NCBI GenBank assembly: GCA_026785945.1
Contig: JAJAZD010000150.1
Coordinates: forward strand, 1 to 37,099
Direction of reading: 5' to 3'
From: Pseudonocardia sp.
GTDB lineage: Bacteria > Actinomycetota > Actinomycetes > Mycobacteriales > Pseudonocardiaceae
DNA length: 37,099 nt
Numbering within the stretch: the first letter of the stretch is position 1; every line of letters starts with the position of its first letter. The notes below the pieces were generated by a model. The model searched no databases. It was given only the letters and a program-made list of their open reading frames with translations, and was not told the origin of the DNA. Positions 1-10,768 of the stretch are shown piece by piece. The translations under genes and the position numbers were made by a program.

Positions 1-1496
1 ACCGGGACCGGACCGGCGGCCGGGGAGGCCCCGGCCGCTCCCGTGGGGGTGGTCCGGTCGGCCGGTCGGGCGGCCGCCGCGAGCAGGGCGGGCCGTTGCG
101 GTCCGGCCTCGGTGGTGTCGGTGCGGGCGTCACCGGTCCACGGATCGATCCCCGGGGCGGGCTCGGCCGCACCGGCGGAGGAGACGAACCCCCCGATTCC
201 CGAGAGCGGACCGCTGAACCCGCCGCCTCCGGCCGGGTCGACGCCCGTGGCGATGGTCGCGGCCCCGAGCCCGATGGTGGCCACGGCGGCCACGGCGGCG
301 GCCAGTGTCAGTACCCGGACCGGACGCGGGCGGGCCGGCGCGGGCTCCGCCACCTCTTCGACGACCGGATCGTGGTCCATCGGTGGGCACGGCGGCGACA
401 CGTCGGACACGGCCACCCCGGGCGCCACCGCCAGGGGACCCCGTGCGGACACCGCCGCTCCCGTGGCGATGACGCTCTTCGGGTCGACGTCGACGGCGAT
501 GGGCCGGCCGAGCTCGGCCGAGACGAGCTGCGCGACCAGCGGGATGCGGGAGGAGCCCCCCACCATGAGGACCGCGTCCAGATCGGGAGACCCCGCGGAC
601 GCGATGGCCCGGCGCAGCGCCTCGACGGTCTCGACGATCGCGGGCCTGATCCGTTCCTCGAACTCGGCCCGGCCCAGGCGCACCTGCGAGTGATGGCCCG
701 GCAGCATCACCGGGACCATCACCTCGGTGTCGGCCGACAGGGCCTCCTTGGCCGCGGTGCACTCGCGGCGCAGCCCGGCCACCGCGGTCTGGACGTCCGG
801 GTCGAACGGGTCGAGCGTGAGCCATGCCTCGCCGACGGCGTCGCGGACGTGATCGAACACGGCCTCGTCGAAGTCGACACCGCCCAGGTGCTCGATGCCG
901 ACGGGCCGCCCGAGGATCTCGAAGCCGCCTCCGTCGACGCGGCGAACGACCGCGGCGTCGAAGGTCCCGCCGCCCAGGTCGTAGACGGCGACGGCGCTGC
1001 CGACGCGCCCCTCGCTCGCGTACCCGATGGCCGCTGCCTCGGGCTCGGAGAGGAACGCGACGCCCGTGACGCCGTGCACGGCGAGAGCCGCGTCGAGCGC
1101 GTCGCGCTTGTGGGATCCCCACTCGGCGGGATGGGTGAGCGTGACCCGCTCGGCGGGCCCACCCTCCCGGTCACCGACGACGGCCAGGATCCATGCGACG
1201 AACCGGGCCGCGACGGTCTCGGCGGCCACGGTGTTGCCGTCGACGACCAGCGGGGTGTCGTCGCCGATGCGCCGCTTGAACTCCCGCACGACCAGCCGCG
1301 AGTCGGTGACGGCGCGGCGGTGGGCAGCCTCACCGCACAGCATCGAACCGTCCTGCGCGAGGAAGACCATCGACGCCACGGACGCGGTGGTCTCCCCGAG
1401 GCGGACGACCTCCGGCCGCGGCTCCCCGTCGCGGCACACGGCCGCGGCCGACCACGTCGTGCCCAGGTCGATCCCCACGCTGTAAGAAGGCCCCAT
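1..1496 (-). CDS. Hsp70-like (DnaK-type ATPase domain) protein with C-terminal TM segment; partial, runs off left edge
   Basis: Minus-strand ATG at 1496 gives MGPSYSVGIDLGTTWSAAAVCRDGEPRPEV..., with phosphate-1 motif GIDLGTT, YDLGGGTFDAAVV, and VLMVGGSSRIPLV. Hydrophobic stretch VRVLTLAAAVAAVATIGLGAATIA follows. Not in the ORF list because it has no stop inside the window. Confidence 0.9.
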   Translation of the reverse strand, partial: MGPSYSVGIDLGTTWSAAAVCRDGEPRPEVVRLGETTASVASMVFLAQDGSMLCGEAAHRRAVTDSRLVVREFKRRIGDDTPLVVDGNTVAAETVAARFVAWILAVVGDREGGPAERVTLTHPAEWGSHKRDALDAALAVHGVTGVAFLSEPEAAAIGYASEGRVGSAVAVYDLGGGTFDAAVVRRVDGGGFEILGRPVGIEHLGGVDFDEAVFDHVRDAVGEAWLTLDPFDPDVQTAVAGLRRECTAAKEALSADTEVMVPVMLPGHHSQVRLGRAEFEERIRPAIVETVEALRRAIASAGSPDLDAVLMVGGSSRIPLVAQLVSAELGRPIAVDVDPKSVIATGAAVSARGPLAVAPGVAVSDVSPPCPPMDHDPVVEEVAEPAPARPRPVRVLTLAAAVAAVATIGLGAATIATGVDPAGGGGFSGPLSGIGGFVSSAGAAEPAPGIDPWTGDARTDTTEAGPQRPALLAAAARPADRTTPTGAAGASPAAGPVP

Positions 1497-1686
1497 TGCA
1501 CATGACTCCACAGTGGAAGACGGACGAACCGGACGACGGACGAGCTGGACGGCAGAGAACTTCATTGCCCTCACCTCAACATCGGCCGGCATTCGTACGC
1601 TGTTAGCACGACGGCCGGACCCGATCAGGTGACTGAGGGCTGGCGCTAGATTGCTCCACGTAGTGGATTGCGGAAAGGGCAGGTAG

Positions 1687-2214
1687 ATGATGGTGCGGCA
1701 CGGGAGGCGGGTGCTCATGGGCGGTCTCGCCCTGGTCATCCACGGTGTGATGATCGTCGGATGCGGATCGGGGACACCGGAGGTGCCGCCCGTCCCTGGC
1801 ATCGTGGACGCCCGCGACGTGCGGGACGCCGATCCGTGCGCGCTGCCCCCGACGGACCGGCTCACCACGCTGGGTCTGCGGACGGACGGCGCGGCCGGCC
1901 AGGCCCCCGAGGGGCCGAGCTGCCAGTGGCGAGGCGACGAGGGCGAGGGCTTGACGGTGACGCTTTACACCGACGGCGGGGGGTTGGCGACGCTGGCGGA
2001 GAACAGCGAGCCCACCACGAGGCGCGTCCGGGTCGCGGGCTATCCCGCTCTCGAGACGTTCACCGGGCAGGGTGAGTTCTGCCAGTACGACGTGGGTGTC
2101 GCCGAGGGGCAGGTGGTGATCGCGGCGCTGGAGGCGCCGTCGCCCGACTCGTGCACGGCGCTGCAGTCCGTGCTGACGGGGCTCGTGGAGAACCTGCCGG
2201 CGGCGCAACGGTGA
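1687..2214 (+). CDS. Lipoprotein, DUF3558-like
   Basis: N-terminal signal with lipobox-like VGCGSG, DPCALPP...CQW pattern typical of DUF3558 lipoproteins; AAGGGCAGG upstream as RBS. Confidence 0.7.
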   Translation: MMVRHGRRVLMGGLALVIHGVMIVGCGSGTPEVPPVPGIVDARDVRDADPCALPPTDRLTTLGLRTDGAAGQAPEGPSCQWRGDEGEGLTVTLYTDGGGLATLAENSEPTTRRVRVAGYPALETFTGQGEFCQYDVGVAEGQVVIAALEAPSPDSCTALQSVLTGLVENLPAAQR

Positions 2215-3707
2215 CGGGCGCGCTCACCGGTGCCGTCCGCGAGGTCCTGCACCAGGCGCTGGCGGTCTACCACGACGATGCTCGCACCCACGCCGGGCTG
2301 CGCGGCCATCTCGAGCGGCTCGACGACCCGCTGCGCATCGCGATCGCCGGCAAGGTGAAGGCCGGCAAGTCGACGCTGCTCAACGCGCTGGTCGGGGAGC
2401 AGATCGCCCCGACCGACGCGGGGGAGTGCACCCAGGTCGTCACGTGGTACCGCGACGGTCGTTCCCCGCGGATCGTCGCGTACCCCAGCGGTGGGCCGCC
2501 GGTGTCGCTCCCGGTGGACCGCCGCGACGGAGCGCTGGTCATCGACCTGCAGGGCCGCTCCGCCGAGGACCTGGACCGGATGGTGGTCGACTGGCCGTCG
2601 CAGAGCCTGCGCACGGCCACACTGATCGACACACCCGGAACGGCGTCGCTGTCGACACAGACCTCGCGGCGCACCGTGCGCTTCCTCAACCCCGAGGACG
2701 ACACCCCCACCGAGGCCGACGCGGTGGTCTACCTGATGCGCCAGCTGCACGCCTCCGACGCCGAGTTCCTCGAGGCGTTCCGGGACCAGGGGGTGGCCAG
2801 GGCGGCCTCGGTCAACACCGTCGGGGTCATCTCGCGGGCCGACGAGATCGGTGGGGGCCGGGTGGACGCGATGTCCTCCGCGCGGGCCGTCGCCGGCCGG
2901 TACCGCACCGAGCCCGCCCTGCGCGGGCTGTGCCAGAACGTGGTGGCCGTGGCGGGCCTGCTGGCCCAGACCGGGCGGACGCTGCGCCAGACGGAGTTCC
3001 AGACGTTGCGCGACCTGGCTGCCGCCCCCCGCGACGACCTGGACGCCGCCCTGCTGACGGCCGACCGCTTCGCCGCCCCGGACGGTCCGGTGGCCGTCGC
3101 GGCGCCGTCGACGACGGTCGAGGACCGCCGCGCCCTGCTGCGCCGGTTCGGGGTGTTCGGTCTGCGGCTGTCCGCGTTGTTGATCCGCCAGGGCACCGAC
3201 AGTCCCGCCGCGCTCGCGAGCGAGCTCGTCCGCCGCTCCGGCCTGACCGACCTGCAGGACGTGCTGCAGACCCAGTTCGCCCAGCGGCGCGACGTGCTCA
3301 AGGCCCGTTCGGCGCTGCTGGCGCTGGACTCGGTGCTGCGCGCCAACCCCCGACCGCAGGCTGCCCTGCTCGCGAGCGACGTCGAGCGGATCTTCGCGGG
3401 GGCCCACGAGTTCACCGAGCTGCGCCTGCTCAGCGCCCTGCGCTCGGGGGCGGTCGCCCTGCCGCCGGCGGTGGTCGCGGAGGCCGAGCGGTTGCTGGGG
3501 GAGACCGGCGCCGGGGCGACGACGCGCCTGGGTCTGCCCCGGGACGCCGAGCCCCACGACGTCCGGGCAGCCGTGCTCGACGCCCTGACCAGGTGGTCGG
3601 ACCTCGCCGGGAACCCGATGACGACCCGCGCCGCGGCAGACGCCTGCCGGGTCGTGATCCGCACCTGCGAAGGGTTGCTGGCCGGTGCGGTGAGCGGCCG
3701 CGCGTGA
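2211..3707 (+). CDS. Dynamin-like GTPase (IniC-like)
   Basis: GTG start at 2211 overlaps the upstream TGA (GTGA). P-loop AGKVKAGKSTLLNALVGE, G3 DTPGTASLS, helical C-terminal half. Confidence 0.8.
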   Translation: MTGALTGAVREVLHQALAVYHDDARTHAGLRGHLERLDDPLRIAIAGKVKAGKSTLLNALVGEQIAPTDAGECTQVVTWYRDGRSPRIVAYPSGGPPVSLPVDRRDGALVIDLQGRSAEDLDRMVVDWPSQSLRTATLIDTPGTASLSTQTSRRTVRFLNPEDDTPTEADAVVYLMRQLHASDAEFLEAFRDQGVARAASVNTVGVISRADEIGGGRVDAMSSARAVAGRYRTEPALRGLCQNVVAVAGLLAQTGRTLRQTEFQTLRDLAAAPRDDLDAALLTADRFAAPDGPVAVAAPSTTVEDRRALLRRFGVFGLRLSALLIRQGTDSPAALASELVRRSGLTDLQDVLQTQFAQRRDVLKARSALLALDSVLRANPRPQAALLASDVERIFAGAHEFTELRLLSALRSGAVALPPAVVAEAERLLGETGAGATTRLGLPRDAEPHDVRAAVLDALTRWSDLAGNPMTTRAAADACRVVIRTCEGLLAGAVSGRA

Positions 3708-3736
3708 CCGGCCGGACCTCCCCGACGCGTGGGGCG

Positions 3737-3805
3737 CCCGGGGGTTACGCCCCCGCACCCCCGGGGGTCGCACGATTCGGGAACATCCCCCGACGCCGGG
3801 GGGAT
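3737..3805. terminator. Two consecutive strong GC hairpins downstream of the IniC-like gene
   Basis: CCCGGGGG(3737-3744)/CCCCCGGG(3758-3765), then ATCCCCC(3785-3791)/GGGGGAT(3799-3805). No clear U-tract, so the terminator role is inferred. Confidence 0.4.
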
Positions 3806-3944
3806 CCCGCCCCCGACCCCGCCCGGTCGGCCCGCGCTCTTCGGCGTCTTCCCCGATGACCACGGCCGCGGCGGGCCCTAACTTTCGTCTCAAGCCGGAG
3901 CAGCCGGCCGGCGCACTCCCAGTACAGACGAACAGGAACGTGAC

Positions 3945-4916
3945 ATGACTCAGAGCTACGGACCGTCCTTCAACTTCGCGCAGTTCCCGGTCTCGGTGAA
4001 CGAGAACGAGCAGTCCGCCAACGGCGGCGAGGGTGGCTCGTCCGGCAACGCGACCAGCAACCCGTTCGTCGCCGCCGTGGGTGACGGTGGGGCCGGCGGC
4101 GACGCCGACGCCTCGGGCGGCAACACCACGGGTGGCAACGGCACCGGCCTCGGCGCGGGTGGCGACGGCACCGGCCTCGGCGCGGGTGGTGACGGCACCG
4201 GTGGCGACGCCAACAGCCTGCTCGCGCTGCTGGGCCTCGGCGGCTCGGGCGACGGTGGCGACGGTATCGGCCTCGGTGTGGGTGGCCCCGGTCTGGGCCT
4301 CGGAGCCGGCGGCAACGCCGGATCGGCCGACGGCGGCCTCGCCGTGGCGGGCGACGGCGGCGACGGACCGGAGAACGACGTCACGAGCGCCGCTGTCTCC
4401 GGCGCCGGTGGCGCGGGTGGCGCGGGCGGCAGCAACTCGGCCGACCAGACCACCGTCACGACCGCGGACCTCGAGTTCAACGACTCGTTCACCGATGACG
4501 ACGGGTTCGACCTCAAGGGCGCCCACGTCGACGACTCGTTCAACTCCGACGACGACGGTGTCGACAACTCCGGCGGCCTGATCAACAACAGCAACGTGGC
4601 CAACGGCGACCAGACCGACGTGGGCAACACGACCACCACCACCGACATCGACGACTCGTTCAACGTCGACGAGAGCATCAGCAACGTGTTCGACAACGTC
4701 GGCAACGACAACTCCGACAACTCGACCGACATCAGCGACTCGGGCAACGACAACTCGATCGACATCGACGTCGACCTCGAGGACGTGGGCAACGTCGACA
4801 ACTCCATCGGCGGCGACTTCGACCCCGACCTGATCGACGTCGACATCAGCGACGTGCTGAACAACCTCGAGCTCGACGTGATCGACGACCTGCCGGTCAA
4901 CCTGCCGATCAACTGA
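3945..4916 (+). CDS. Gly-rich then Asp/Asn/Ser-rich low-complexity protein of the IniB-associated island
   Basis: 323 aa: N-terminal half Gly/Ala/Asp-rich, C-terminal half with DSFN/DNS/DSGN repeats; no signal peptide or TM. RBS-like AGGAAC upstream. Confidence 0.75.
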   Translation: MTQSYGPSFNFAQFPVSVNENEQSANGGEGGSSGNATSNPFVAAVGDGGAGGDADASGGNTTGGNGTGLGAGGDGTGLGAGGDGTGGDANSLLALLGLGGSGDGGDGIGLGVGGPGLGLGAGGNAGSADGGLAVAGDGGDGPENDVTSAAVSGAGGAGGAGGSNSADQTTVTTADLEFNDSFTDDDGFDLKGAHVDDSFNSDDDGVDNSGGLINNSNVANGDQTDVGNTTTTTDIDDSFNVDESISNVFDNVGNDNSDNSTDISDSGNDNSIDIDVDLEDVGNVDNSIGGDFDPDLIDVDISDVLNNLELDVIDDLPVNLPIN

Positions 4917-5059
4917 GCGGACCCCGCTCCCTGAGCGCCGGACCCGGCGCCAGCCCCCGGCGGCGGGCCCGGCCCCGCTCCACACGTCCCACGTCTGACT
5001 GCCCGGCCGGGTACGGCTACCGGGCGGGCCCGACCTACATGATTCGGAGGTGAAAGACG

Positions 5060-5818
5060 ATGCTTTCCATTTCCTCGCTGATCGACTTCCTGCTGGACCT
5101 GCTCCGTGACGAGGAGGCTGCGGCCGAGTTCGCCCGTGACCCACAGGCGATGCTGGCCCGGCACGGCCTCGAGGGCGTGACGGCCCAGGACGTGTGCGAC
5201 GTCGAGCCGATCCTGGCGGACACCCACGGGGTCTCCGCCCGGCCGAGCCACCCCGCCGCGGACCACGTGTCCGGCGGGGGCCACGCCCAGCGGCCCGAGC
5301 ACCACCGTCCCGAGCACGGTCACGACGACCCGGTGCGCGAGATCCACCACGTGACGACGAGCTACCAGGTGGACCACGAGGTGGTGGTGGAACACCACAC
5401 CGCCCAGAACACCTACAACGAGTACAACTCCGAGTTGAACTACTACGACCACAGCGTCACGACCGGTGACGACTCCACGGTCGTGCAGGACTCGTTCAAC
5501 GAGGACAACGACGGCGTCGACAACAAGGGCGGTGTCATCAACGACAGCAACGTCGCGAACGGCGACCAGGACACCGTGGGGAACTCGGAGGAGACGACGG
5601 TCATCGAGGACTCGTTCGATGAGGACGACAGCGAGACGACGGTGATCGTCGACTCGGGCAACGACTCGAGCGACAACTCCACCACCGTCGAGGGCTCGCT
5701 GAACGACTCCAGCAGCAGCGCCACCACGTCGGTGAACGACTCCTACAACATCGACGCGCCGGTCGCGGACGCCGAGGTGTCCGAGGTCGACCTCTCGCAG
5801 GCGGAGTCCGCGGCATGA
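5060..5818 (+). CDS. IniB N-terminal domain-like protein with His-rich middle and Asp/Asn/Ser-rich C-terminal repeats
   Basis: N-terminus LIDFLLDLLRDEEAAAEFARDPQAMLARHGLEGVTAQDV resembles the IniB N-terminal domain; RBS GGAGG at about 5046. Confidence 0.75.
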   Translation: MLSISSLIDFLLDLLRDEEAAAEFARDPQAMLARHGLEGVTAQDVCDVEPILADTHGVSARPSHPAADHVSGGGHAQRPEHHRPEHGHDDPVREIHHVTTSYQVDHEVVVEHHTAQNTYNEYNSELNYYDHSVTTGDDSTVVQDSFNEDNDGVDNKGGVINDSNVANGDQDTVGNSEETTVIEDSFDEDDSETTVIVDSGNDSSDNSTTVEGSLNDSSSSATTSVNDSYNIDAPVADAEVSEVDLSQAESAA

Positions 5819-5882
5819 GCTGATCGACCACCCGACCACCCGAACACCGGTCCGGGCCCGCCCCGGCCCTGGCCGGCACATC

Positions 5883-5957
5883 GGCTCCGTCCCCGCTGCG
5901 GGGGCCCTTCCACAGCGCTCCTCCTGTGGGGGCCCTGTCCTGCAGGGGGACGGAGCT
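5883..5957. promoter_or_regulatory. Long imperfect inverted repeat / RNA hairpin upstream of the IniA-like gene
   Basis: GCTCCGTCCCC(5884-5894) pairs with GGGGACGGAGC(5946-5956); GGGCCC(5902-5907)/GGGCCC(5930-5935); CCACAG(5910-5915)/CTGTGG(5924-5929), 8-nt loop. Confidence 0.6.
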
Positions 5958-6010
5958 GTGTGTCGTGTGGCACCGGCCGGTGTCGTACATCGTCCCCCAA
6001 GGAGGACACA

Positions 6011-7942
6011 ATGGACAGAGTGGACCCCGTGGACCTGCCGGCTCCGGTCAAGGCCGTGGACCTGACGCTGTCGACGATCGCCCGCTACCAGCGACCCGAC
6101 CTCGAGGCCCGGTTGCGGCAGGCCCGGGCCCGGCTCCTCAACGACCACGTCCGGGTGCTCGTCGTCGGCGAGTTCAAGCAGGGCAAGAGCCTCCTGGTGA
6201 ACGCACTGGTCAGCGCCCCGGTGTGCCCGGTCTACGACGACATCTCGACCGCCGTCTCGACAGTGGTCTCGTACGCGGAGGTGCCCTCGCTCACCCTGGT
6301 CCGGGTCGCCGACGGCGGCGGTGACACGCCCCCGGTGGAGCAGCGGCAGCAGTTGGGCGGCATCGAGCTGGAGAAGATGTCCGACGCGGTGTCGCACTAC
6401 GTCAGCGAGCAGCGCAACCCGGCCAACCGCCAGGGGCTCAGCCACGTCGAGGTCGGGATCCCCCGGCACATCCTCCGGGCGGGCCTGGAGATCGTCGACA
6501 CCCCGGGCGTCGGTGGCCTCAACTCCGTGCACGGCGCCGCGACGATGTCGGCACTGCCCTCCGCGGATGCCGTGCTGCTCGTGTCCGACGCCTCCCAGGA
6601 GTACACCGCTCCGGAGCTGGAGTTCCTCCGGCAGGCGGTCCGGCTGTGCCCGAACGTCGCCTGCGTCATGACCAAGACCGACCTCTACCCCGACTGGCGG
6701 CGGATCGCCGAGCTCGACCGCAAGCACCTGCGCAACGCCGGTGTCGACGCCGAGCTCATCGGGGTGTCCTCGACCGTCCGCTGGCAGGCCGTGGTCACCG
6801 GCGATGCCGCGCTGAACGTCGAGTCGGGCTTCCCCGACCTCGAGACGTTCCTGGCGAGGCGCGTCATCGGGCAGGCCGACCTGCTGGCCCGCCGGTCGAC
6901 CGTGCACGACATCCTCGCGGTCACCGGCCAGCTCTGCGACGGGCTGCGATCGGAGGAGTCCGCCCAGCGCAACCCGGAGTCGGTGCAGGACCTGATCGCC
7001 GACCTGGCTGTGGCGCAGCAGCGCGCCGCCGCGTTGAAGGAGCGCTCCGCGCGCTGGCAGCACACCCTCAACGACGGCGTCGCGGACCTCAACGCCGACA
7101 TCGACCACGACCTGCGCGACCGTATGCGCGAGATCACCCGTCTCGCCGAGGAGGAGATCGACCAGGGCGGGGACCCGACCAAGACCTGGGAACAGCTCTC
7201 GAGCTGGGTCCAGCAGCAGGTCGCGGCGTCGGCGTCGACCAACTTCATCTGGGCGACCGAGCGGGCGCGCTGGCTCGCCGAGCAGGTCGCGATGCACTTC
7301 GCCGAGGACCGCGAGGCCCTGCTCCCCGCGCTGCGCACGGAGGCCTCCGCGGCGCTCGGGTCGGTTCGCGAGATGCGGATGCGCGACGGCGAGCCGTGGA
7401 ACCTCGGCCAGCAGGCCCTCGCGGGGCTGCGCGGCAGCTACATGGGCATGCTGATGTTCGGCCTCATCGGCACGATGGTCGGGCTGAGCCTGCTCAACCC
7501 GTTCTCGATCGGTGCCGGTCTGCTGCTGGGCGGCAAGACCATCAGCGACGAGCGCCGCCGGATCGTGGCCCGGCGCCAGGCCGAGGCGAAGACCAGCGTG
7601 CGGCGGTACGTCGACGACGTGACGTTCCAGGTCGGCAAGGACTCCCGCGACATGTTGCGCGGCGTGCAGCGTGATCTTCGTGACCACTTCACCGAACTGG
7701 CCGAGCAGCTCAACCGCTCGCTCAAGGAGTCACTGTCCACCGCGGAGCGGTCGGTGAAGGCGAGCCAGGGCGACCGCGAACGTCGCCTGACCGAGATCCC
7801 CGCCGAGCGGGCGCGACTCGAGAAGTTGCAGGAACGGGTGCGCACCCTGCTTCCGGTGTCCGACACACCGCCCCGACCGGTGTCGGTGCAGAAGGACCGG
7901 GGCTCAGCCGCCCGGGGGCGGCCGGCTCACGCCGCGGGGTGA
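6011..7942 (+). CDS. Dynamin-like GTPase (IniA-like)
   Basis: ATG 6011 preceded by AAGGAGG. P-loop VGEFKQGKSLLVNALV, G3 DTPGVGG, G4-like TKTD; C-terminal hydrophobic MGMLMFGLIGTMVGLSLLNPFSIGAGLLLGG and coiled-coil-like tail. Confidence 0.85.
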   Translation: MDRVDPVDLPAPVKAVDLTLSTIARYQRPDLEARLRQARARLLNDHVRVLVVGEFKQGKSLLVNALVSAPVCPVYDDISTAVSTVVSYAEVPSLTLVRVADGGGDTPPVEQRQQLGGIELEKMSDAVSHYVSEQRNPANRQGLSHVEVGIPRHILRAGLEIVDTPGVGGLNSVHGAATMSALPSADAVLLVSDASQEYTAPELEFLRQAVRLCPNVACVMTKTDLYPDWRRIAELDRKHLRNAGVDAELIGVSSTVRWQAVVTGDAALNVESGFPDLETFLARRVIGQADLLARRSTVHDILAVTGQLCDGLRSEESAQRNPESVQDLIADLAVAQQRAAALKERSARWQHTLNDGVADLNADIDHDLRDRMREITRLAEEEIDQGGDPTKTWEQLSSWVQQQVAASASTNFIWATERARWLAEQVAMHFAEDREALLPALRTEASAALGSVREMRMRDGEPWNLGQQALAGLRGSYMGMLMFGLIGTMVGLSLLNPFSIGAGLLLGGKTISDERRRIVARRQAEAKTSVRRYVDDVTFQVGKDSRDMLRGVQRDLRDHFTELAEQLNRSLKESLSTAERSVKASQGDRERRLTEIPAERARLEKLQERVRTLLPVSDTPPRPVSVQKDRGSAARGRPAHAAG

Positions 7943-10641
7943 GCCCCGTCGGCGTCGATCGCGGTCCGGATGTGCTCGAAGAGCTCCTCACGCGAGGCCA
8001 CCGCGAGCCGCTGACGCATGCGGGCGACGTGGTGCTCGACGGTCTTCGCGGAGATGAACAGCCGCTCGCCGATCTGCTTGTAGGTCAGCCCCGCGAGGAT
8101 GAACCGCCCGATCTCGAGCTCGCGTTCGCTGAACGTCGGCCGGTCCTCCGATGCGGAGCTCGCCGGGCGCGCGGCGGTGGCGGGGCCGGCAGCGGACCTG
8201 TCGACGGGTGCGTCGGGCGGCGAGTCGGTTGCCGTGTCGGCACGGACGTCCCGTGAGGCGACCACGTCGGTGATCGTGCCACCGGGCCACTCCGGAGCCG
8301 CAGCGCCGGTGTTGCCCACCGTCGACTGCAGGGCCCGGGCGAACGCGTGCAGCGCGGCGGTGGACCGCTTGTCCGGAGCCGCGGGTGCGGCACGGCCGGC
8401 CAACTGCGCGGCCTCCCAGCCCAGGCCGACGGCGAGCATCCGGCGCGCGACGGCAACCACCGTGTCGGCGTCCGTGTCGCCGTACAGCACGTCGGACCAG
8501 CATGCCGCGGCCGCGTGCAGCACCGCCGCGTACGGGCTCGCCGCCGCCACCCCGGCCAGGACCGAGGTGTGGCGCGCGACGTCCGTGGGCCGGTCCGCGG
8601 CCACCGCGGCCTGCAGGTGGAACCAGGCCAGGGGAGCGGTCCACAGCGGGGGGCGGCCGATCCGGTCGAGCAGGTCGTCGGCCGCCGCGAGGTGCGCGGT
8701 CAGCCAGTCGGACTCGCCGAGCTGCGCGGCGGCGACGGTGAGCTCTCCGAGCTGCGGCAGGACCGACAGGTCGACGGGGTACTGCACCAGGGCGTCCCGC
8801 GCCCTGGACCACGCGGCCGCCAAAGCACCGGAGCCGTCGGCCCTGCGGGCCACGGCCACCCCGAGCGAGGCGGCGAGGAACTCGTCGCGCGGCTCCAGGT
8901 GCAGCTCCGGAGCGGCCACCCGCTCGAGAACCCGACGCGCGAGGTCGGGGCCACCCCGGCTCATCATGAGCCAGGCGTGCAGCAGCCGGTGGCGGGTGCG
9001 GGACGGACGCCCGCCGTGTCCCGAGGCGATCGCCTTGCGCAGGCCCGCGTCGGCGACCGAGAGCTCGCCGCACTGCAGGGCGACGACGGCTGTCAACGCC
9101 GCGGGCGTGTCGGGGAGCAACGCGGTCGAGGCGATGGGCTCCAGCAGGATCGCGGCCCGGGACAGCTGCGACAGCGCGGCGGGCCCGGATCCGGAGACGG
9201 TGGCGACCATGCCCTGCGCCATCAGCATGGCGGCGCCCTCCAGCAGCGTCGCCGCTCGCAGGTCGGCATCGGTCCGTGCCGCGGCGAGCGCGTCGCGCGC
9301 CTCCCGCAGCGCACCGGTGGCCACCAGGGCGGGGACCCCGAGCAGCGCGCCCGCGGGGGACAGGCTGAGGTGCAGATCGGCACTGCGTTCGAGCATGCCG
9401 CGGTGCGCGAGCCCCGCGGCGGCGGTGGTGACGGCGTGCGCGCGGTCGGGGGCGTCCGGATCGGAGATCACCTGGTCGGTGTGACGCAGTGCGCCGTCGA
9501 GGTCACCGGCGAGCGCGGCCGCCATGGCCCGTCGCCCGGCGATCTCCGGTGGTGGCGTCCCGGCCTCCACCGCGGCCGTGAGGAGGTCGACGGCCAGCGC
9601 GGGCGAGGAGACCAGTGCCTCCTCCGCGGCGGCCTCGAAGACCGCGGCGATGCGGCTGCCGCCGGCGCGGTGCGCGCGGGCGCCCCGCCGCTGGCGGGCG
9701 ACCGACAGCACCGAACCGCCGCGGTCGAGCTCGATGCCGGCGAGTCGATGCTGCAGCTCACGTCGGCGGAGCAGCGGGGTGAGGCGCAGGAACAGGTTGC
9801 GGATGAGCGGGATGACCTGCCCGGACTCGACGACGAGCCCGGTGGCCCTGGCGGCCTCCACCGCGGCGTCGAGCTCGTGGGGGGCACCGCCCAGCAGCGG
9901 CCCGAGCACGTCGCTGTCGAGCCCGGCGCCCCGCGCCAACGCCTCGAGCAGGTCGTGCACCGCGGGTTCGAGGGCGTCGACCCGGTGGCGCAGCCGTTCC
10001 GCGAGACCGGCCGACACGGTCACGCTGTCGGGCCGGTGGAACCCCTCGGGTCGGCGCGGATCGAAGCGGCCGGAGTCCACCAGACCCTGCGCCACCAGGT
10101 CGACCAGCGAGGGAAGGCCTCCCGACTGCTGATGGACCAGGTCCACCATCTCGTCGGGCGGACGGCACCCGACGCGCTCCGCGATGCGGTCCGCCACGGC
10201 CGTCCGCGTGAGGTGGCCGACCATCACGACCAGCCGCCGGGGGCCGATCGTCGCGGTGAGGGCGGCGAGTGCGCGCGGACGCGGCCACGGCCGGTAGGCC
10301 ACGACGAGCCGGACCGACTCGTCGTCGGCGAAGCCGCGCAGATCGTCGAGGAACCCGGGTTCGAGGCGGTGCGCGTCGTCGATCAGCACGGCTGCGCCCG
10401 GGTCCAGCCGGTCCCGGGGCACGCGGTCCCGCGCGTCACCCCTGACGACCTGCACACCCGCCCGCCGGTACTCCGCGGCCATCCTGTCGAGCACCGTGGT
10501 CTTCCCCGTGCCACCGGGACCGACGACGGCCGCGGCCAGCGATGCGCCCGGCTCGGCCGCGATGAGCGCCACGATCCGAGCGGCGGTCGGCGTCGCGCCG
10601 AGGGACCGCTCGGCCAACACCGTCCCTGTCGACGTCGACAT
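7927..10641 (-). CDS. Large ATPase/LuxR-family regulator (IniR-like)
   Basis: Walker A GPGGTGKTT, Walker B-like AAVLIDDAH, C-terminal LuxR HTH FSERELEIGRFILAGLTYKQIGERLFISAKTVEHHVARMRQRL. ATG at 10641 with AGGGGGT RBS. Confidence 0.85.
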   Translation of the reverse strand: MSTSTGTVLAERSLGATPTAARIVALIAAEPGASLAAAVVGPGGTGKTTVLDRMAAEYRRAGVQVVRGDARDRVPRDRLDPGAAVLIDDAHRLEPGFLDDLRGFADDESVRLVVAYRPWPRPRALAALTATIGPRRLVVMVGHLTRTAVADRIAERVGCRPPDEMVDLVHQQSGGLPSLVDLVAQGLVDSGRFDPRRPEGFHRPDSVTVSAGLAERLRHRVDALEPAVHDLLEALARGAGLDSDVLGPLLGGAPHELDAAVEAARATGLVVESGQVIPLIRNLFLRLTPLLRRRELQHRLAGIELDRGGSVLSVARQRRGARAHRAGGSRIAAVFEAAAEEALVSSPALAVDLLTAAVEAGTPPPEIAGRRAMAAALAGDLDGALRHTDQVISDPDAPDRAHAVTTAAAGLAHRGMLERSADLHLSLSPAGALLGVPALVATGALREARDALAAARTDADLRAATLLEGAAMLMAQGMVATVSGSGPAALSQLSRAAILLEPIASTALLPDTPAALTAVVALQCGELSVADAGLRKAIASGHGGRPSRTRHRLLHAWLMMSRGGPDLARRVLERVAAPELHLEPRDEFLAASLGVAVARRADGSGALAAAWSRARDALVQYPVDLSVLPQLGELTVAAAQLGESDWLTAHLAAADDLLDRIGRPPLWTAPLAWFHLQAAVAADRPTDVARHTSVLAGVAAASPYAAVLHAAAACWSDVLYGDTDADTVVAVARRMLAVGLGWEAAQLAGRAAPAAPDKRSTAALHAFARALQSTVGNTGAAAPEWPGGTITDVVASRDVRADTATDSPPDAPVDRSAAGPATAARPASSASEDRPTFSERELEIGRFILAGLTYKQIGERLFISAKTVEHHVARMRQRLAVASREELFEHIRTAIDADGAHPAA

Positions 10642-10768
10642 GAAACCCCCTGCCGGCCGGACGGCCGTCCATAGCGACCATCGGGGTTCTCGGGGCACTT
10701 GTTAACGCAAGATGGCGGATCACCCCCGATCGCGTGACGACCGTGGGCGTCCGGTCACTCTCCGCGCA

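Follow-up and report, generated by a model that had tools for sequence, protein, structure and literature searches.

Closest described systems

In mycobacteria, the activator of iniBAC is IniR, a dnaK-like gene adjoins iniR in M. smegmatis, and the role of IniB is unknown (PMC5760070). The locus described here comes from a window of 37,099 nucleotides (the whole stretch of DNA that was analyzed, contig JAJAZD010000150.1 of a Pseudonocardia sp.). It resembles the iniBAC and IniR system of M. tuberculosis and M. marinum in its IniB N-terminal domain, its IniA and IniC dynamins, and its IniR-like regulator, and its Hsp70 gene parallels the dnaK-like gene beside iniR in M. smegmatis (PMC5760070). 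It differs from iniBAC in that it adds a second, Gly-rich partner that lacks the IniB domain and bears the same tail, whereas mycobacteria instead have iniB and a small iniB*. Matched short motifs in the products of neighboring genes are also described for bacterial amyloid signaling motifs (BASS), which are 20 to 40 residues long (PMC8086366, PMC12261475).

Gene content of the ini locus

The window locus is an ini locus that encodes an Hsp70, an IniC-like protein, a Gly-rich protein (P1), a protein with the IniB N-terminal domain (P2), an IniA-like protein, and an IniR-like protein. The Hsp70 gene (positions 1 to 1535, reverse strand; PF00012, E value of 1.4e-51) is truncated by the contig end, and complete orthologues adjoin the other ini loci. 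The IniC-like gene (2151 to 3707, forward strand) encodes a dynamin-family GTPase (Dynamin_N, E value of 8.1e-12), its orthologue in the compared loci being IniC. P1 (3945 to 4916, forward strand; 323 amino acids [aa]) can be read from its sequence as an N-terminal FNFxQ motif, a Gly-rich middle, and an Asx-rich tail, and P2 (5060 to 5818, forward strand; 252 aa) consists of an IniB N-terminal domain, a His-rich linker, and an Asx-rich tail. The gene for an IniA-like dynamin-family GTPase (6011 to 7942, forward strand) adjoins that for P2; its product matches IniA (PDB 6j72) with an E value of 8e-129 and Dynamin_N with an E value of 3e-19, and its frame, with an ATG at 6011, is open from 5960. 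The IniR-like AAA+/LuxR-type regulator, encoded on the reverse strand (7927 to 10698), aligns with the IniR family NF038181 over its full length (residues 36 to 914; E value of 1.3e-100), at 338 bits versus an equivalog cutoff of 750 bits. A promoter and terminator scan of positions 1400 to 8100 gave nothing above chance.

Among the ini loci of the family (L107 to L146), an Hsp70 gene lies by the ini locus in all 36 loci with IniA and an IniR-like gene in 35 of the 36; Hsp70, IniR, and IniBAC make up a five-gene module in these loci. The IniC-like gene is upstream of P1 in the window genome, Pseudonocardia humida, and Pseudonocardia lacus (window 2151 to 3707; L055 and L064), and it comes after IniA in most other loci of the window type.

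The initial annotation described the N-terminal halves of P1 and P2 as unrelated, and the profile searches agree. The IniB_NTERM domain of P2 (5075 to 5221, forward strand; residues 6 to 54) scores 68.6 bits against NF038175 versus a cutoff of 40 bits (E value of 3.2e-19) and is modeled by AlphaFold as helices with a pLDDT of 73 to 85. P1 stays below threshold for every Pfam and NCBIfam family, and a profile search found no IniB_NTERM in it; it is kin to IniB via its tail only. We read P1 and P2 as the pair of IniB-type partners in a Pseudonocardia ini locus, a dynamin locus with a putative role in envelope stress.

A tail module common to P1 and P2

The two proteins had been reported to match at 25 of 32 positions in one block, and the translations bear this out. 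The block occupies residues 197 to 228 of P1 (4533 to 4628, forward strand; DSFNSDDDGVDNSGGLINNSNVANGDQTDVGN) and residues 144 to 175 of P2 (5489 to 5584, forward strand; DSFNEDNDGVDNKGGVINDSNVANGDQDTVGN), with 25 of the 32 residues and, in the DNA, 77 of the 96 bases identical. When the C-terminal halves of P1 and P2 were shuffled 200 times, the best ungapped 32-mer reached 13 identities, and local shuffling of the same halves in 15-residue pieces gave a maximum of 14 of 32. A composition artifact as the source of the match is ruled out by these shuffles and also by the unmatched acidic pairs in sister loci and the unlike tails of the other ini loci of the same genome, both described below.

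The similarity exceeds the reported block, continuing on the same diagonal (offset of 53) over about residues 193 to 266 of P1 and 140 to 213 of P2; the 32-residue block is the best-conserved stretch of a tail of about 75 residues in both proteins. A 72-position profile of the full tail module, A3, matches P1 at 4521 to 4733 and P2 at 5477 to 5689 (both on the forward strand), with E values in their own genome of 5.7e-25 and 4.0e-30, respectively. That P1 and P2 have homologous IniB-type tails is close to certain. In window-type tails, an NxD[DN]DG motif is followed by GGxIxDSxVxxGDxNxVGN, to which GGDIEDSTITTGDGNVVGD corresponds in other IniB tails; a pattern scan places this core at 4572 to 4628 in P1 (GGLINNSNVANGDQTDVGN) and at 5528 to 5584 in P2 (GGVINDSNVANGDQDTVGN), on the forward strand. 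Upstream of the P1 block, a diverged extra half-repeat, DSFTDDDGFDLKGAHVD, can be read from the sequence (4482 to 4532, forward strand), and it is conserved as DNDGFD in P1 orthologues. The motifs said to trail both blocks are similar but not identical: DSGNDSSDNST in P2 corresponds to VGNDNSDNST in P1, and the second of the DSF motifs in P2 reads DSFD.

Both tails are very acidic, with 43 acidic residues and 1 basic residue in P1 (158 aa) and 31 and 1, respectively, in P2 (122 aa). AlphaFold folds the IniB domain only and leaves the tails at a pLDDT under 50 on shallow alignments; with just 9 to 11 aligned sequences, AlphaFold2 gave the P2 tail a pLDDT of about 30 to 36 and P1 no secondary structure. 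A search of the P2 profile against solved structures gave no match, and neither a known family nor a solved relative of the tail was found. As the tails have no AlphaFold fold (albeit on these shallow alignments) and are very acidic, the beta-solenoid or amyloid-like Asx ladder suggested in the initial annotation is unsupported.

Distribution of the tail

Profile A3, which was built from the P1/P2 pairs themselves and which more distant tails may therefore escape, was run on 394 family genomes, of which 11 have the tail (9 Pseudonocardia and 2 Actinophytocola); in a class-wide sample of 396 genomes, it detected the tail in the window genome only. Each of the 11 genomes has the tail in P1 as well as in P2, and no genome has fewer than two proteins with it. 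A block ubiquitous in unrelated acidic proteins would have spoken against a selectively shared module; these searches of family and class genomes rule out such ubiquity, and the tail, being confined to pairs in the family, absent elsewhere in the class sample, and covarying within genomes, behaves as such a module should. In the family, an ini locus most often encodes only one IniB.

Several variants of the arrangement were seen. P. humida has two tandem P1 genes (L055, 4435 to 6420), and in P. lacus P1 tails occur twice, one on each of two contigs (L063 and L039). In a Microbacterium metagenome-assembled genome (MAG), an example of the more distant tails that profile A3 can miss, one Gly-rich and one IniB protein have a different common tail of their own (24 of 32; L086, 3910 to 4743 and 9079 to 10290), their genes lying apart on opposite strands.

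Matching of tails within genomes and loci

In raw identity, the own partner ranks first in three clades (A, D, and E), which does not hold for clades B and C. Once row and column effects are removed, P1-P2 tail identity within genomes is greater than expected (permutation P value of 1e-4), and this corrected excess also holds for all 11 genomes, with a clade-level value of 1/120. Particular changes are common to both partners: in Pseudonocardia oceani, an insertion of 4 residues together with a deletion of 3; in a Pseudonocardiales MAG, EDSVVAGGxANxSGN; and in Actinophytocola, a different tail, SVVxGDD...NSDDD, with P1 and P2 tails forming one clade in the tree (support of 100/99). A tree forcing the P1 tails into one clade is weakly rejected (P value of 0.045).

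Tails of partners within a locus agree at 24 to 30 of 32 positions, versus 9 to 14 of 32 (chance level) when different ini loci of one cell are compared. The window genome has three ini loci with mutually unlike tails (10 to 14 of 32), while the within-locus values are 25 to 29 of 32 in the window locus and in the C48 locus. The two further loci, L065 (C48) and L066 (C58), have different tails, and one of them encodes three tandem IniB proteins. In sister-locus pairs (L066/L002, L068, and L073), the tails are unmatched, at 10 to 12 of 32 and not above shuffles, indicating that matching is not universal and not required in every ini locus. A P1-like partner with a PFNLxxF start and a Gln/Asp-rich tail precedes IniB in L068 (5024 to 5608), L073 (4336 to 5013), and L002 (1964 to 3184). 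That IniB-type tails are kept matched within loci is well supported.

Gene conversion in tandem IniB genes

Matching could result from passive concerted evolution, with tandem IniB-type genes swapping repetitive tails by gene conversion without any functional need. Such exchange does occur in several of the tandem IniB_N pairs from 19 further Pseudonocardia genomes, which served as a comparison set. Their tails are best matched by their own partner in 19 of 19 cases (identity of 0.76 within versus 0.56 between), and their N-domains are so in only 2 of 15 (0.45 within versus 0.50 to 0.54 for the same copy). In tandem pairs, tails therefore go with the genome and N-domains with the copy of the gene. 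When copy labels were placed on trees, the N-domains required 2 changes and the tails 13, the latter number being no lower than for shuffled labels. Synonymous identity in these pairs is raised (0.865 within versus 0.772 expected), and exact codon runs in their tails reach 168 (L173), 71 (L032), and 35 (L171) codons; gene conversion is therefore real in Pseudonocardia, and it is recent in the tandem IniB genes of the three genomes concerned (G042, G003, and G038). In another genome (L172), a third, shorter acidic IniB gene lies between two near-identical IniB genes.

The tandem IniB pairs resemble gene-converted tandem paralogues, with concerted evolution of one segment, but the window-type pair lacks a sign of recent conversion at synonymous sites. 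Its synonymous identity (0.810 within versus 0.794 between and 0.782 expected) is at background and its longest exact codon run is 4 to 12, so that recent conversion has no support as the source of its match. Further, gene-specific residues persist in the block (the Lys of NKGG/LKGAD is found in every P2), and outside the tail P1 and P2 have no homology that could seed conversion. Conversion of older date could still have taken place in this pair, and we consider passive exchange an unlikely but serious explanation of its matched tails.

Possible roles of the matched tails

That the tails are matched inside each cluster and differ between clusters and species suggests that P1 and P2 assemble with each other or on a partner common to both, and from this pattern we infer physical coassembly. 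Coassembly through the matched tails is our best reading of the sequence comparisons and the likeliest purpose of the matching, although we hold it tentatively and at somewhat less than even confidence. P1 and P2 would be made together, each with contacts of its own, P2 through the helical IniB domain and P1 through the Gly-rich half; the acidic tails, being matched, would join the two proteins in a mixed assembly or onto one common partner. Assembly would take place at the membrane, the presumed site of IniA/IniC dynamin action. Through the NxD[DN]DG motif, divalent cations such as calcium might aid the packing of the very acidic and otherwise unfolded tails.

Both tails may instead bind the same third partner, e.g., the Hsp70, IniA, or IniC of the locus, their mutual match being secondary. 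Consistent with this, all 36 family loci with IniA also encode, beside IniB, a dedicated Hsp70 and an IniC, and single-IniB loci retain a tail without a second copy to match; we nevertheless regard a third partner as the main cause of matching as rather improbable.

About as doubtful is the possibility that the acidic tails bind calcium and fold on export or calcium influx, the match reflecting a metal site only. The motif N-x-D-[DN]-D-G-[VIL]-D, present as NSDDDGVD in P1 (4542 to 4565, forward strand) and NEDNDGVD in P2 (5498 to 5521, forward strand), is the most conserved motif of the block; it occurs in 24 of 24 window-type tails, and columns N8, D10, D12, G13, and D15 are invariant. It is a near match to the calcium loop Dx[DN]xDG (PMC3123361) and has the acidic-residue spacing and Gly of such loops in EF-hand, thrombospondin, and dockerin proteins. 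However, its first position is Asn rather than Asp in all 24 tails, it has no supporting fold, and no Pfam calcium family matches the tails. In addition, a metal site would account for 8 residues, whereas the covariation lies mainly in the next 60.

A BASS-like motif is very unlikely: although the block has the size of the matched 20- to 40-residue motifs of neighboring genes, P1 (without a family) and the IniB protein P2 have no Bell or NLR domain, no Bell or NLR pair bears the block, the matching spans about 75 to 85 residues, and the longer tails, without amyloid support, have a strong acidic excess (43:1 and 31:1).

Returning to coassembly, a more far-reaching version of it is that IniB-type tails form a locus-specific recognition code, by which members of one ini system coassemble and are insulated from any further ini systems that the cell has. 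We offer this as speculation that is probably too strong; under such a code, tails would change quickly from locus to locus and from species to species yet stay matched inside a locus. If true, it would insulate the three ini systems with unlike tails in the window genome. No other part of the isoniazid-inducible dynamin operon varies as much as IniB. The matching within loci, which for the window type was seen in both Pseudonocardia and Actinophytocola and which recurs in 19 other Pseudonocardia pairs, points to the tail as the working interaction surface.
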